A DNA stretch of 64,000 nt from Tipula vernalis (taxonomy: Eukaryota; Arthropoda; Insecta; Diptera; Tipulidae), in assembly GCA_958295665.1 (NCBI GenBank), contig OY282560.1:257033368-257097367 (forward strand). Reading direction: 5' to 3'. The notes under the pieces were generated by a model that worked only from the letters and a program-made list of their open reading frames with translations, made no database searches and was not told where the DNA came from. The translations under genes were made by a program, and so were the position numbers. Shown piece by piece: positions 3,813 through 48,188 of the stretch (positions are counted from its first letter, which is position 1; each line of letters starts with the position of its first letter).

Positions 3813-3936
3813 CTATTGTCGAGACTCTCTTAATTCATCTTCTGTAAACGTAAATCTTCGAGGAGGTTTGATAGCACGCCCTGATCTTGTTCTTACGTAA
3901 CCTGCATCTGAATCGCTAATATTTTCAATATTATTA

Positions 3937-4021
<85 letters not shown>

Positions 4022-7000
4022 GACATTTAATTAAATGATCTACAATGCTAGAAGTTTGACAATTTGTGTTTGTAATATTACTGTTATGAGTTCTGTTCAA
4101 TTTTAAAATATGGATCCTATTACGCCGATATTCTGTTCCATCATTAGCTTGCACTATGTATGATCTTGGCATATCTTTCTCTAAGCATTTTTTAATAATT
4201 GCCGGACTCCATGGACCATCAGGTTTCAATTTAAACATGACCTTTTCACCTGGTTGTAGTACTGCTAAACTTTTTGCGGTTTTATCGTGATATTTTTTCA
4301 TGTTTTCTTGTTGTTTCTTTGTAGATTCGGCATACTGACTATATTCTATAACTTTTGGCTTTAGATTGAATGCCAATACAGGAAGTTTAGAGCGAATTTG
4401 CCGAGACATCAATAATTGCGCTGGTGAGGACCTTTCACCTTTTGGGGTATTACGAAGTTGTAACAGAGCAATGTATGGATCTGCATTTGACTCATATGCC
4501 TTTTCTAATATATTTTTTATTATTTTTACCGAGCTTTCTGCAAGACCATTCCCTCTTGCATAATATGGACTTGATGTAATATGAGTAATTCCCCATTCCG
4601 TTAGGAATTGTTTAAAGGCATGAGACTCAAATGGTGGACCATTATCCGACCGTATTTCTAATGGAATGCCATGTCTAGCAAAAATCGATTTTAAGTGAAT
4701 TATGGTTGATTCCGCGTTTGTGGACTTTAATTGAGCCACTTCAATAAATTTTGAATAAAAATCAACAACTATTAAATATTTCGTTTTCCGAAATTCTAGA
4801 AAATCAATTGCAACTATTTCCCATGGTAATGTAGTTATTGGACTTGGTATTAGTGGTTCTTTGCTGTTGGCACTTCTGTATTTAAGACACACATTACAAT
4901 TTCCAACCATATTTGTTATTTCTGTGCTCATGCCTGGCCAGAACAATATTCCTCTCACCTGATTTTTACTACGTTCTATCCCAAAATGTCCTTCATGAAT
5001 CAATTTTAACATATGTTGTCTTAATGATTGTGGGACTATAACACTAGTACCTTTAAATACTATACCGTGTATCACATGTATGTCACTTTTTATATTAAAA
5101 TACGGTTTTGTAAAATTTTCTATTAAACTACTCTTCTCAGGCCAGCCATTGTGGCAATATGAAATTAATGTTTGCAATGACTTATCTTTGGATGTCTCCT
5201 CTAATATAATATTTTTCATTTCCTTTGATACTGCTAAACTGTTATATAGTAAGTTAACATGAAGCATTATGTCCTCATCCATATCGTATTCTATCTCTGG
5301 TAGCGGTGCTCTCGACAAGGTATCTGCTATATATAAGAGATGACCAGGTTTGTAAACAACATCTAAATCATATGCTTGCAGTCTCATTAACATTCTTTGT
5401 AAGCGTACGGGAACATCTGCTAAAGATTTTTTAAATAACGTTACAAGCGGCTTATGATCAGTTTCGACTGTAACTTTTTGCCCATAGACGTACTGATGAA
5501 ACCGTTGACATCCAAATACAATCGCATACAATTCTCTTTCAATTGATGCATAATTTCGTTGTGATGAGCCAAGTGTTTTTGACGCATATGCCACAGGCTT
5601 ATTATTCTGTAAAATCACAGCACCAAGTGCTGACTGACAGGCATCGACAGATAAAACAATTGGTGAATTTACATCAAAATGAGTGAGTACTGATGAACTG
5701 CACACAATATTCTTTAATTTATTGTAAGCCTCTTCATAACATGCATTCCATTGCCAATCCGATTTTTTCTGTAATAGCGATCGTAAAGTTTCTGTTTCTA
5801 TAGCTAAATTTTTTATGTAAGATCCAATATAATTCACCATGCCAAGAAATCGCTGAAGATCCTTGACATTATTAGGAGAGGGCATTTCACGAATAGCTTT
5901 GATTTTATCCTCATCGGGATGCATTCCTTCCTTACTAAACACATTTCCAAGATATTTAACCTGCGACTGGCGAATCTTGCATTTGGACATATTAAATTTT
6001 ACATTTAACTCTGTAGCTCTACCCATTACCTTTAATAATCGCTCATCATGTTCCTTCATTGTCTGTCCCCATATAAGTAGATCATCAATGTATATTGATA
6101 CTCCAGGTAAATCACCAAATGCCTCTGTCATGATCCTATGAAATATTTCCGGCGCAGCATTAATTCCATATGGTAGGCGATTAAATTTGAAACGACCAAA
6201 TGGTGAGTTGAATGTACATAGTTTCGAACTTTCTTCATCCAGTGGAATCATCCAAAATCCACTGTTGGCATCCAGCGTAGAAAATACTGTAGCTCCCACC
6301 AAGCTTGATCGAATATTGTCAAGCGTGGGAATCGGATATCTCTCTCGTTGTATAGCTTTATTTAAATTTCGTGGATCTAAACAAATCCGAAGACCACCAT
6401 TTTTCTTTTCGACTATTACTATCGAGCTTACCCAGTCTGTTGGTTCTGTTACTTTTGAAATAACCGCAAGTCTTTCCATACGATCTAATTCAGATTTCAA
6501 TTTTTCTCTTAATTTGAATGGCACTTTACGCGGAGGATCAACAATAGGACGTACACAAGTGTCAACATATAGGTGACATGTTTTATTAATACAACCCAAG
6601 CCTTTGAATAGGGTTTCAAAATTATCAATATTATTACAGTACACTGTCTTTACAGCCTTTGATTTTCCGATAAAATTTAATTTGACCGACGTTTCAATAC
6701 CAACTATTGTAATACAAGAAATATTAACAATCACAAACTCAATGTCATTTTTCTTATCTTGATCATATACACATGTTAGTGTATATTTACCAACAACTGG
6801 AATTTGTCTACCACTAAAATCCTTTAATTTATATTGGCATGCCTCAATTTTTTGACCCGATACATTCAATGATTTCAAGAGAGTAACAGACATTACATTA
6901 ATTTTACATCCTGTATCTATCATTGCCTCAATTCTAACCTTATTAATTAATAAATCTATATACCATGAACCTGACATAACTTCTTTATTATTAATCTGAC

Positions 7001-7898
7001 CAACTACAAAAAATTCATTATCTGACTGTTCTTCCGCATTTACAGTGTCATCAACATTCACATTAAAAAGAGCTTTTTTATTCCTACAGACCTTAGCATA
7101 ATGATTCAGCTTCTTACACAAGTTGCACGTTGCACCCATCGCTGGACATCGCATAGCTTTGTGTTGTTGACCACATCGGTTGCAAATCTTCATGCTTGTC
7201 TCTCTATTATTTGAATAAACTCTCAATCGAGGCTCAATTTCCTGTTGTTGCTGAATATGCTGTTTACGACTTACTCCTCTGACGTTGACTGTACCAACAA
7301 AATTACCTGCTTGTCGAAGTTGCTCTGCTCCTTGTTGTGTGAGCTGTAGCGTTTTGCAAATTTCTATAGCTTTTTGTAAATTAACATTCTCCTCACGCAA
7401 TAAATGTTGCTTAATGAAGTGATTAGAATCATTTAAGCCACGAATTAGGATATCTTTAATAAGATCTTCACGTAGATCACCAAAATCACAAGTAAGACTT
7501 TTGTTTGTTAAATCCGTCACAAAGTCTTCGATCGACTCCTCAGCTGTCTGCATTCGGCTGAAGAAATTGTGTCTTTCTATGGTAATGTTCTTTTTTGGTA
7601 CGAAGTAATTCTCAAATTTGCTCACAAGTTCTTTATAGGTTATGTTATCAATATCCACATTAAATGAATTAAATACAATGAGAGCTGGATTTCCAATCAA
7701 ATGTAATAACATTGCCACTTTTCTTTGATCCGATTCCTGTTCATAACCTGTAGCGCGTAGATATATTTTAAAAGATTGTAACCAGAATCCCCAATTATGT
7801 GACAGACTTCCCGTCATGTTTAGAGGTTGTATCCGTCCTGATACACCTGATTTATTGTTTGTTTGTTTTTTATCATCACTTTCGTCTTCTGACACCAT
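3813..7898 (-). CDS. Gag-Pol polyprotein of Ty3/Gypsy element (1361 aa)
   Basis: One frame encodes the whole polyprotein. Domains in order: gag-like capsid region (about 35-190); two CCHC knuckles (about 239-272; the first is CX2CX3HX4C); aspartic protease with DTG at 328-330; reverse transcriptase (about 470-640) with YIDD at 603-606; RNase H (about 745-865: SVDA, then ETDHKPL and DTLSR); integrase with HHCC zinc finger (H968, H971, C1001, C1004) and D1032/D1085/E1121, a D-35-E spacing; then a C-terminal region with about 27 consecutive Asn (about 1285-1315). All catalytic residues I can check are present and there is no stop or frameshift. No env or separate gag. The start codon straddles the LTR/primer-site junction: A is the last LTR base and TG the first two bases of the primer-binding site, so gag has almost no leader beyond the LTR. 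The product would drive reverse transcription and integration of the element itself. Confidence 0.96.
3930..4020 (-). repeat. (ATT)n microsatellite coding poly-Asn
   Basis: About 27 uninterrupted ATT units (AAT on the coding strand) near the 3' end of gag-pol, translating to a poly-asparagine run. Pure codon repetition suggests slippage rather than selection on the protein. Confidence 0.9.
7886..7897 (-). promoter_or_regulatory. tRNA primer-binding site, probably tRNA-Leu
   Basis: In element orientation the base after the 5' LTR begins TGGTGTCAGAAG, complementary to an acceptor ending CTTCTGACACCA. I associate that end with tRNA-Leu. It overlaps codons 1-5 of gag-pol. Confidence 0.75.
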
Positions 7899-8090
7899 GT
7901 TGTATTTCTTGTTTAATAAAAATGATTCTATAATATTTAATTAACGTGTATTTTTATTAATTATCTTTTTTAGCTTCTTGTTCAGCCACGTGTCACTTTA
8001 TGTCTGCTGCTGTCTTCTTTATTTTCATAAGGTCCGTTCTTTTATTTCATAAGGTGCGTTCATTTATATCTCTTTGACACATATACAACA
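7898..8090 (-). repeat. 5' LTR of the Gypsy element
   Basis: 193-bp LTR apparently identical to 3504-3696. It should contain the promoter and R region. Followed by the second GTAGC target copy. Confidence 0.95.
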
Positions 8091-44465: not shown

Positions 44466-44505
44466 CAAAACCAACAAAAATGTTTATACATTTCTGTTGG
44501 TTTTG
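44466..44505. mobile_element. 40-bp terminal-only remnant of the CAAAACCAACA family
   Basis: CAAAACCAACAAAAATGT and TTCTGTTGGTTTTG are joined by about 8 bp and flanked by TCTCGAT on both sides (44459-44465, 44506-44512). Both termini and the duplication remain but the body is gone. Confidence 0.75.
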
Positions 44506-44872
44506 TCTCGATTCAAAACCAACACTAATGTAATACTACAAGCCTGATTCAGTGATGAAGCACGCAGATACCCTCTTACCAAAACCAACAAAAATGTTTA
44601 TACAAGCCATAACCTGCTAAAATTCTCTCTTTAGAAAGCCTGATTGCGTTGATAGCTAACTTACACACATTTAATAATATATACTGAAGAGTGTATTGGT
44701 CACTACAAAAAACCATATAAAAAAAAATCAAATTTTTTTGTTTCTTACCACTACTAATTCCAGTTGATATCACACACTACTTAATATCAACTAACAATTG
44801 AGCATTTTACTCTCTGTTTTTTGCTCTTCTTCTACAACAAAACTCAATTTTACGAAATGTCAAAATCAAAAC

Positions 44873-44901
44873 CATAACCTGCTAAAATTCAGGAGGTTAT
44901 G
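44873..44901. mobile_element. 29-bp terminal-only remnant (copy in left arm)
   Basis: CATAACCTGCTAAAATTC meets AGGAGGTTATG and is flanked by ATCAAAAC on both sides (44865-44872, 44902-44909). These are the same termini as the 1436-bp element. It lies just before the truncated zinc-finger coding sequence. Confidence 0.8.
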
Positions 44902-44910
44902 ATCAAAACT

Positions 44911-45361
44911 CAGAAATCGTGAAGTGCGGAGAAGAATTTCCCGATGGACGCTCCCTCATGAATCATCGTCATTCGCATACGAATGTTACAGGGCGACAAT
45001 TCCCTTGTCGCGAGTGTGGCAAAATATTTGGTTCGCGTAGTTCACAACAAATTCATATACGTGTTCATACGGGTGAGAAACCTTACTGGTGCCGTTATTG
45101 TTGGAAAGCTTTTGCTGATTGTGGGACATTACGAAAATATGAAAGGATTCATACACGTGAGAAACCTTACGTTTGTTCAGAACATTACGATCACATCATT
45201 CGAGCCCTGACACCAAAAGGGGAAATTCCAATACACCTTATTACTGCCAAGTTTGTCACGAGTTATTTGTAATGTCACTAGATTTAATTCAACACAGTGA
45301 CATGAATACGGCCGTGAAGAGACAATCGATTGCAAGTAAATGTAGAACGGTGGAGAATTAA
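44911..45361 (+). pseudogene. Captured C2H2 zinc-finger gene fragment (left arm)
   Basis: The frame from about 44911 reads [20 protein letters not shown], a first finger lacking its first Cys. Then come [23 protein letters not shown], an HTGEKP linker, [23 protein letters not shown], and [12 protein letters not shown] frame change near 45185-45205 leads to a further finger, [20 protein letters not shown], ending at 45361. A possible last exon after TTTATAG at 45407 reads TEPRKYKRRRKLKPHELEKF to a stop at about 45510. Krueppel-type fingers with HTGEKP linkers are host transcription-factor features rather than transposase parts, so this looks like a gene piece picked up by the element. Truncation and frame change make it a probable pseudogene. 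Confidence 0.8.
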
Positions 45362-46043
45362 TTATAATATTTGTCATATCAATGTGTATTCTATTTTATA
45401 TTTATAGACGGAGCCACGAAAATATAAACGGAGAAGGAAATTAAAACCGCACGAGTTGGAAAAATTTCGTGCCGAAAAAATGGCAAATTATTTTCGGTTT
45501 TTATTTTGAGCATAATTTGCATTTTGATTTATATACCAATTAATATTCCAGTTACCAAAGTAAGACGGCAATAAAATAATATGAGAATGATAAAAAAAAA
45601 TCGTTACAAAAAAATTAAAAAGAAAAATTCTTTCTGTATACATTGTTTATAGTTTAAAAATTAAATAATTATGTCAAAAATAGTTTCTAAGATTTTTTAA
45701 TTACAAAAATAGTTTTTTAATGCCTCAGAAGTTGACCAATAAGTCGAAATATAAGGTTAAAAACTGAAGTTTTTTTTAATTAAATATTGGGTTTTATTTA
45801 AAATAAGCGGAAATTAAAATATTTAAATAAAATGACTGTTGCACATGATTCGTTTTTATTGGTTTAGATTTTACTCTCTTTTAGTTTCATAGTATGCGAA
45901 TGTTTATGTTTTCTACACTGTATTCACAACCATATATATATATACGCTGTCATTTCACAAATATATTCATCAGTATAGATACTTCTACAGCATTAGTATA
46001 CATTTGATTGGGCTTTCTAAAGAGAGAATTTTAGCAGGTTATG

Positions 46044-46284
46044 GTCAAAACCAAGTCTCGTTCCCTCCTTACACAGATACTATCAAAAAAATGTACACTA
46101 TATTTATTATGAATATATCACCTATACTTATCTGTTTTGTGTATATATACTTTCTGATTTATTTGTATGCATCACTAATACTACGCCTTAATGTACTTTT
46201 TTATACCTTAAGTGTTTGTACTGTTTGGCTTGTATAAACATTTTTGTTGGTTTTGCTTGAGTGTTTGTACTGTTTGGCTTGTAT
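46044..46284. other. 241-bp spacer between inverted arms, apparently inverted
   Basis: Starts GTCAAAAC and ends GCTTGTAT. Reversed in place, it would give both arms perfect 8-bp duplications (ATACAAGC and GTTTTGAC). About 150 bp of it (46064-46210) is also an inverted relative of 47730-47880. Confidence 0.85.
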
Positions 46285-46966
46285 CATAACCTGCTAAAAT
46301 TCTCTCTTTAGAAAGCCCAATCAAATGTATACTAATGCTGTAGAAGTATCTATACTGATGAATATATTTGTGAAATGACAGCGTATATATATATATGGTT
46401 GTGAATACAGTGTAGAAAACATAAACATTCGCATACTATGAAACTAAAAGAGAGTAAAATCTAAACCAATAAAAACGAATCATGTGCAACAGTCATTTTA
46501 TTTAAATATTTTAATTTCCGCTTATTTTAAATAAAACCCAATATTTAATTAAAAAAAACTTCAGTTTTTAACCTTATATTTCGACTTATTGGTCAACTTC
46601 TGAGGCATTAAAAAACTATTTTTGTAATTAAAAAATCTTAGAAACTATTTTTGACATAATTATTTAATTTTTAAACTATAAACAATGTATACAGAAAGAA
46701 TTTTTCTTTTTAATTTTTTTGTAACGATTTTTTTTTATCATTCTCATATTATTTTATTGCCGTCTTACTTTGGTAACTGGAATATTAATTGGTATATAAA
46801 TCAAAATGCAAATTATGCTCAAAATAAAAACCGAAAATAATTTGCCATTTTTTCGGCACGAAATTTTTCCAACTCGTGCGGTTTTAATTTCCTTCTCCGT
46901 TTATATTTTCGTGGCTCCGTCTATAAATATAAAATAGAATACACATTGATATGACAAATATTATAA

Positions 46967-47417
46967 TTAATTCTCCACCGTTCTACATTTACTTGCAATC
47001 GATTGTCTCTTCACGGCCGTATTCATGTCACTGTGTTGAATTAAATCTAGTGACATTACAAATAACTCGTGACAAACTTGGCAGTAATAAGGTGTATTGG
47101 AATTTCCCCTTTTGGTGTCAGGGCTCGAATGATGTGATCGTAATGTTCTGAACAAACGTAAGGTTTCTCACGTGTATGAATCCTTTCATATTTTCGTAAT
47201 GTCCCACAATCAGCAAAAGCTTTCCAACAATAACGGCACCAGTAAGGTTTCTCACCCGTATGAACACGTATATGAATTTGTTGTGAACTACGCGAACCAA
47301 ATATTTTGCCACACTCGCGACAAGGGAATTGTCGCCCTGTAACATTCGTATGCGAATGACGATGATTCATGAGGGAGCGTCCATCGGGAAATTCTTCTCC
47401 GCACTTCACGATTTCTG
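46967..47417 (-). pseudogene. Captured C2H2 zinc-finger gene fragment (right arm)
   Basis: Same coding sequence as 44911-45361, including the missing first Cys and the frame change. Both defects therefore predate the duplication of the element. Confidence 0.8.
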
Positions 47418-47426
47418 AGTTTTGAT

Positions 47427-47455
47427 CATAACCTCCTGAATTTTAGCAGGTTATG
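47427..47455. mobile_element. 29-bp terminal-only remnant (copy in right arm)
   Basis: Reverse copy of 44873-44901 with the same 8-bp duplication, so it was present before the 1436-bp element multiplied. Confidence 0.8.
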
Positions 47456-48188
47456 GTTTTGATTTTGACATTTCGTAAAATTGAGTTTTGTTGTAGAAGA
47501 AGAGCAAAAAACAGAGAGTAAAATGCTCAATTGTTAGTTGATATTAAGTAGTGTGTGATATCAACTGGAATTAGTAGTGGTAAGAAACAAAAAAATTTGA
47601 TTTTTTTTTATATGGTTTTTTGTAGTGACCAATACACTCTTCAGTATATATTATTAAATGTGTGTAAGTTAGCTATCAACGCAATCAGGCTTTCTAAAGA
47701 GAGAATTTTAGCAGGTTATGGTTTTGACTCAAGATATAAAAAAGTACGTTAAGGCGTAGTATTAGTGATGCATATAAATAAATCAGAAAGTATATACACA
47801 AAACAAATAAGTATAGGTGATAGATTCATAATAAATATAGTGTACATTTTTTTTGATAGGATCTGTGTAAGGAGCGAACGAGACGGCTTGTATAAACATT
47901 TTTGTTGGTTTTGCTCTTACATTTAAAACCTTATAGTTGAAAGTGTTAGTGCGAAAATAGAATAAAAATACTCATCTAACCAATGACAATTAGTTTTTTT
48001 TCATTATTAACATACCCAATTCTCCCTCCACAATTCGTTTGTTTTGTTTTATCTACAATTTGTAAGTTTTTCTCACTCATTTATATAATCTGTCGATCAC
48101 CAATACTTTCATGTATAAGCGCAAAATAAATTTCTAATATTGGTGACAATCAGGCTTGTAGTACATTAATGTTGGTTTTGTCTCGATT

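Follow-up and report, generated by a model that had tools for sequence, protein, structure and literature searches.

Exchanged target duplications point to a 241-bp inversion between twin transposon copies in Tipula vernalis

In a 64-kb window of the Tipula vernalis genome (the whole stretch of DNA analyzed, 64,000 nucleotides), a spacer of 241 bp (46044-46284) has very probably been inverted between two identical and oppositely oriented copies of a DNA transposon. The inversion is well supported, since the exchanged 8-bp target duplications of the two copies and a further 7-bp sequence, ACTCAAG, all become direct when the spacer is flipped. As to the route, hybrid element insertion, in which the ends of two copies cooperate, is given about an even chance of being the correct explanation.

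Twin elements, flanks and host repeat

Copy 1 (44608-46043, plus strand) and copy 2 (46285-47720, minus strand) are both of a short form of 1436 bp and, as a direct comparison confirmed, exact reverse complements of each other; they had been described as inverted twins in an earlier note on this DNA. Each possesses perfect terminal inverted repeats of 33 bp that start with CATAACC (element ends, CATAACCTGCTAAAATTC). The outer and inner 8-bp flanks are ATACAAGC and GTCAAAAC for copy 1 and, correspondingly, GTTTTGAC and GCTTGTAT for copy 2. Neither copy has matching flanks as assembled; each outer flank is instead the reverse complement of the other copy's inner flank. Once the 241-bp spacer is flipped in silico, copy 1 is flanked on either side by ATACAAGC and copy 2 by GTTTTGAC, two perfect duplications at once. 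The flanks and their restoration by the flip had also been reported in the earlier note, and both observations hold. In the assembled sequence, the halves of the first duplication are located at 44600-44607 (plus) and, displaced, at 46277-46284 (minus), while those of the second are found at 46044-46051 (minus, displaced) and 47721-47728 (plus). Judged by the base composition of the window, a single 8-bp match of this kind is expected by chance with a probability of approximately 4.6e-5, and both together with approximately 2e-9. The breakpoints display neither deletion nor duplication, and the twins are identical.

Both the spacer and the flanks are supplied by a short repeat, H, which in its full form comprises 229 bp and ends in 29-bp terminal inverted repeats (CAAAACC...GGTTTTG). 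The twin pair sits within an outer H, which also holds a second, nested H. After the spacer is flipped and both elements are removed with one duplication each, the sequence reads CTCTTAC-outer H-CTCTTAC, with a 210-bp nested H inside and ACTCAAG on either side of the latter. In the assembly, the outer H is represented by its left terminal repeat (44580-44607, plus) and its remainder, H positions 43-229 (47727-47913, plus), with the 7-bp CTCTTAC duplication at 44573-44579 on the left and 47914-47920 on the right (both plus). The nested H (46046-46255, minus) has a shortened right terminal repeat, and its first 201 bp are 94-98.5% identical to the full copies in L013, L003, and L029 (loci elsewhere in the genome). 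The ACTCAAG copies (46256-46262, minus, and 47727-47733, plus) are opposed in the assembled orientation and form a direct duplication around the nested H only after the flip. This third duplication lay outside the argument of the earlier note.

Once the spacer is flipped and the nested H removed, the outer H measures 229 bp and aligns over positions 1-229 to L003 (96%), 1-227 to L029 (96%), and 1-229 to L013 (94%), where uninterrupted copies of H lie beside other insertions of the element. Read by eye, H is flanked by 7-bp repeats in L003 (CTTGTAT) and L029 (TTTCAAA), and by none in L013. Removal of copy 1 in the unflipped orientation also yields, by BLAST, a slightly gapped match of 232 bp to a full H (97.8% with L013). 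At the left junction, the flipped reading matches L003, L004, L013, and L022 exactly over 42-45 bp, and the unflipped reading contains a small gap; because the ends of H are inverted repeats, the host match at this junction is not by itself decisive for the orientation. The flip additionally restores a tandem repeat of 49 bp in the host, which is a weaker argument than it first appeared, H having inverted-repeat ends. The weight for the inversion is carried by the ACTCAAG duplication and by the outer H that reads from 1 to 229.

The element and its family in the genome

The family was sampled in the organism's own genome (1.27 Gb, 340 contigs), with scores obtained for 40 of the 1577 candidates of a first look; 38 further loci (L003-L040) provided 39 copies besides the twins, with L024 contributing two. 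Most copies belong to a long form (about 1829 bp), compared with which the short form of the twins is missing some 391 bp of the zinc-finger region. The earlier note had regarded a lack of 8-bp duplications elsewhere in the family as a potential objection to its reading; with strict adjacency, a perfect 8-bp target duplication is present in 21 of the 39 other copies (19, plus L015 and L036). A 7-bp duplication occurs in six (L013, L019, L021, L026, L032, and L033), and such a mixture of lengths is unusual for one family. Seven copies (L005-L011) have common flanks, which match each other at all seven loci, and are not independent, being carried within one larger repeat. No matching duplication was found in five of the 39 (L018, L020, L024b, L038, and L040), three of which, L020, L038, and L040, represent truncated matches. 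In L005-L011, the short form lies within a repeat of about 4.76 kb that L041 (L041:2407-7170) and L042 have in common at 98.6%; in L041, this repeat has a TGAT-run end and a 23-bp duplication. Judged by eye, it resembles a retroelement in which the transposon travelled as a passenger.

Internally, the element reads as a disrupted C2H2 zinc-finger gene, with Pfam matches to zf-H2C2_2 and zf-C2H2. The truncated frame, recognized as an open reading frame with Pfam matches, is located at 44919-45272 (plus) in copy 1 and mirrored at 47056-47409 in copy 2. A protein search with the frame of the long form (137 aa) matched 84 proteins, almost all of them without a name; the best named match is a fragment from Culex quinquefasciatus that covers 49% of the query at 73% identity. 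The family carries the zinc-finger fragment, apparently a captured gene piece, in dozens of copies. As no transposase was seen within the element, it is considered non-autonomous. The lengths of its terminal repeats and duplications would fit either the P superfamily or hAT. The combination of a 7- or 8-bp duplication and terminal inverted repeats of about 30 bp, a feature of the P superfamily although not specific to it, is present in the family; the hAT feature is an 8-bp duplication throughout, but the copies here include both lengths, as counted above.

The element also contains, at 44873-44901 (plus; mirrored in copy 2 at 47427-47455), an end-to-end remnant of the same family of only 29 bp with ATCAAAAC on both sides, so that remnant and flanks together span 44865-44909 (mirrored at 47419-47463). 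To judge by these letters, it would represent an extreme internal deletion in which only the ends and the 8-bp duplication were kept. A similar remnant of 48 bp lies beside a full copy in L027. Elsewhere in the window, an extended open reading frame at 3813-7940 (minus) encodes reverse transcriptase, RNase H, and integrase domains together with a long asparagine run, and marks a gypsy-like retroelement.

Insertion into H is a recurrent property of the family. The H sequence was recognized at the insertion point in six of 33 tested flank pairs (L003, L004, L016, L017, L022, and L025); the insertions in L004, L022, and L025 entered the same 8 bp of H (GTACAAAC, in either orientation), and the site in L017 is one base off. 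In view of this recurrence, two insertions in one H array are not surprising, which helps a route through two insertions. In a cluster formed by L024 and L025 (C1:241.010-241.022 Mb), element tips are joined to the end of another copy at its positions 54 and 65, and L024b has mismatched flanks (ACTAATGC/GTACAAAC); the arrangement would fit recombination between members of the family or their aberrant transposition. The same place (C1:241.01 Mb) offers a possible second exchanged pair, with CTTAAGAT in L024 and ATCTTAAG in L025, which is explained equally well by two separate insertions, as the family repeatedly enters the same H sites.

Routes to the inversion

Hybrid element insertion, considered the likeliest route by a small margin, would start from one element that occupied ATACAAGC on each of two sister chromatids (or homologues). 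One sister's copy would contribute its right tip and the other sister's copy its left tip; acting together as a hybrid element, these would insert at GTTTTGAC, about 240 bp off, oriented so that the DNA in between is inverted. Two identical inverted copies and exchanged duplications would thus arise in one step. The nested insertions around the twins make the order of events readable: the outer H would have come first, followed by the nested H, the element at one or both sites, and the flip.

A scripted hybrid element insertion (one copy at ATACAAGC, tips into GTTTTGAC) reproduces 44501-48000 letter for letter. A scripted homologous crossover between inverted copies yields the same letters at all three points tried, so the sequence does not separate the two routes. 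The earlier note had found the structure hard to explain except by two independent insertions followed by recombination. Inversion of the spacer stands, now with three duplications on its side; the exclusivity of that explanation does not, given that hybrid element insertion produces the same letters.

The close kinship of the twins also speaks against two independent insertions. Of the 741 pairs that can be formed from 39 near-full copies, themselves counted, they are the only one without differences, the median being 14 mismatches, and the nearest other copy among those compared, L003, differs by three mismatches and two gaps. Three private changes are shared by the twins and found in none of the 39 other aligned copies, in a comparison that covers the alignment apart from a middle stretch inside the 391-bp gap: a T-to-A change at element position 120 (where three of the 39 others have a gap), the loss of 2 bp following position 1159, and two additional bases, AT, at positions 1325-1326. 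At least two of the three, and perhaps all, lie in slippage-prone runs. Identity together with shared private changes suggests that the twins are parent and child, or that one was homogenized by copying over the other; two unrelated insertions they would not be. With 40 of the 1577 candidates scored, a closer or identical copy may exist.

According to a study on the Drosophila transposon Galileo (PMC2775673), hybrid element insertion leaves identical copies and ectopic recombination chimeric ones, with an otherwise equal outcome. By this criterion, the identity of the twins would fit hybrid element insertion. Gene conversion within the palindrome would nevertheless fake such identity and erase the difference between the two routes, and identical twins likewise result from a local hop with subsequent recombination or gene conversion. 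Chimerism cannot be seen in these copies because they are identical.

A local hop (or conversion) followed by crossover is almost as likely as the hybrid route. More broadly, a route of two separate insertions and a later homologous crossover between the oppositely oriented copies is given somewhat less than an even chance. In its likelier form, one copy would have reached the same nested H by a local hop; gene conversion may or may not have taken part. This course of events reproduces the sequence of the window exactly and agrees with the repeated entry of the family into H (six of 33 flank pairs); besides, L024b, with its mismatched flanks in a direct-orientation cluster, looks like a recombinant between copies. 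Recombination is also the accepted route for the inversions made by Galileo and BuT5. It requires two or three events, however, where the hybrid route takes one step, the identical twins show no chimerism, and the three private changes that the twins share make strictly independent donors unlikely.

An assembly artefact, to which most of the remaining probability falls, is very improbable. In this case, the true locus would have an unflipped spacer or a single copy, and the assembler would have been misrouted through the 1.4-kb inverted repeat; inverted repeats of 1436 bp around a spacer of 241 bp are indeed a known trap. The 64-kb window contains no N letters, though, the contigs are 371-464 Mb long (three, of 464, 412, and 371 Mb), and ordinary long reads are longer than the structure, which covers only 3.3 kb in total. 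That there was no inversion at all, only two insertions that lost their duplications, or saw them decay, and have flanks that match by coincidence, can practically be dismissed: matching duplications are indeed absent from five of the 39 other copies, but two crossed exact 8-bp matches, at the chance level given above, and the third duplication would have to be accidental.

Returning to hybrid element insertion, its complete form holds that one non-autonomous copy carrying a zinc-finger fragment gave rise, in a single event, to the 241-bp inversion and to its own inverted twin, and that the spacer may flip on if the twins still pair. Taken as a whole, this account is proposed tentatively, as a possible rather than a probable reading.

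Related systems and implications

The closest parallels come from Drosophila. In inversion 2z3 of Drosophila buzzatii, opposed copies of Galileo lie at both ends and have exchanged their 7-bp target duplications (Delprat et al. 2009, PMC2775673); hybrid element insertion was rejected there because the copies are chimeric (PMC2775673). The present locus likewise has opposed copies of one DNA transposon at the ends of an inversion, with exchanged duplications. Unlike 2z3, which is of chromosomal scale with chimeric copies and 7-bp duplications, it involves 241 bp, identical copies, and 8-bp duplications. Inversion 2s of Drosophila mojavensis, associated with BuT5, shows exchanged duplications of 9 bp (PMC3355041) and resembles the twins in that a miniature element has exchanged its duplications; in 2s, by contrast, one copy is a footprint of 27 bp, and the inversion is large and fixed.

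Hybrid element insertion and the related sister-chromatid and reversed-ends transpositions are documented for the P element and maize Ac (PMC2775673 and PMC8225341). In those events, as would be the case here, the ends of two copies cooperate to produce an inversion flanked by identical inverted copies; they were shown by experiment, whereas the event in T. vernalis is deduced from one assembled sequence. The miniature elements derived from the P element in Anopheles gambiae (PMC1562414) have terminal inverted repeats of about 30 bp, 8-bp duplications, and an interior unrelated to transposase, all of which are shared by the present family. The family departs from them in the 7-bp duplications of six of 39 copies and in the zinc-finger fragment inside.

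The locus constitutes a well-preserved and very small case of a known kind of transposon-made inversion. Few natural inversions are still readable down to their target duplications, and this one is apparently young. The signature of exchanged duplications alone is no proof of two insertions and recombination, and the locus provides a clean population test case for hybrid element insertion versus homologous recombination. Should the twins continue to pair, recombination may turn the spacer back and forth, which, if true, would make it a standing switch.
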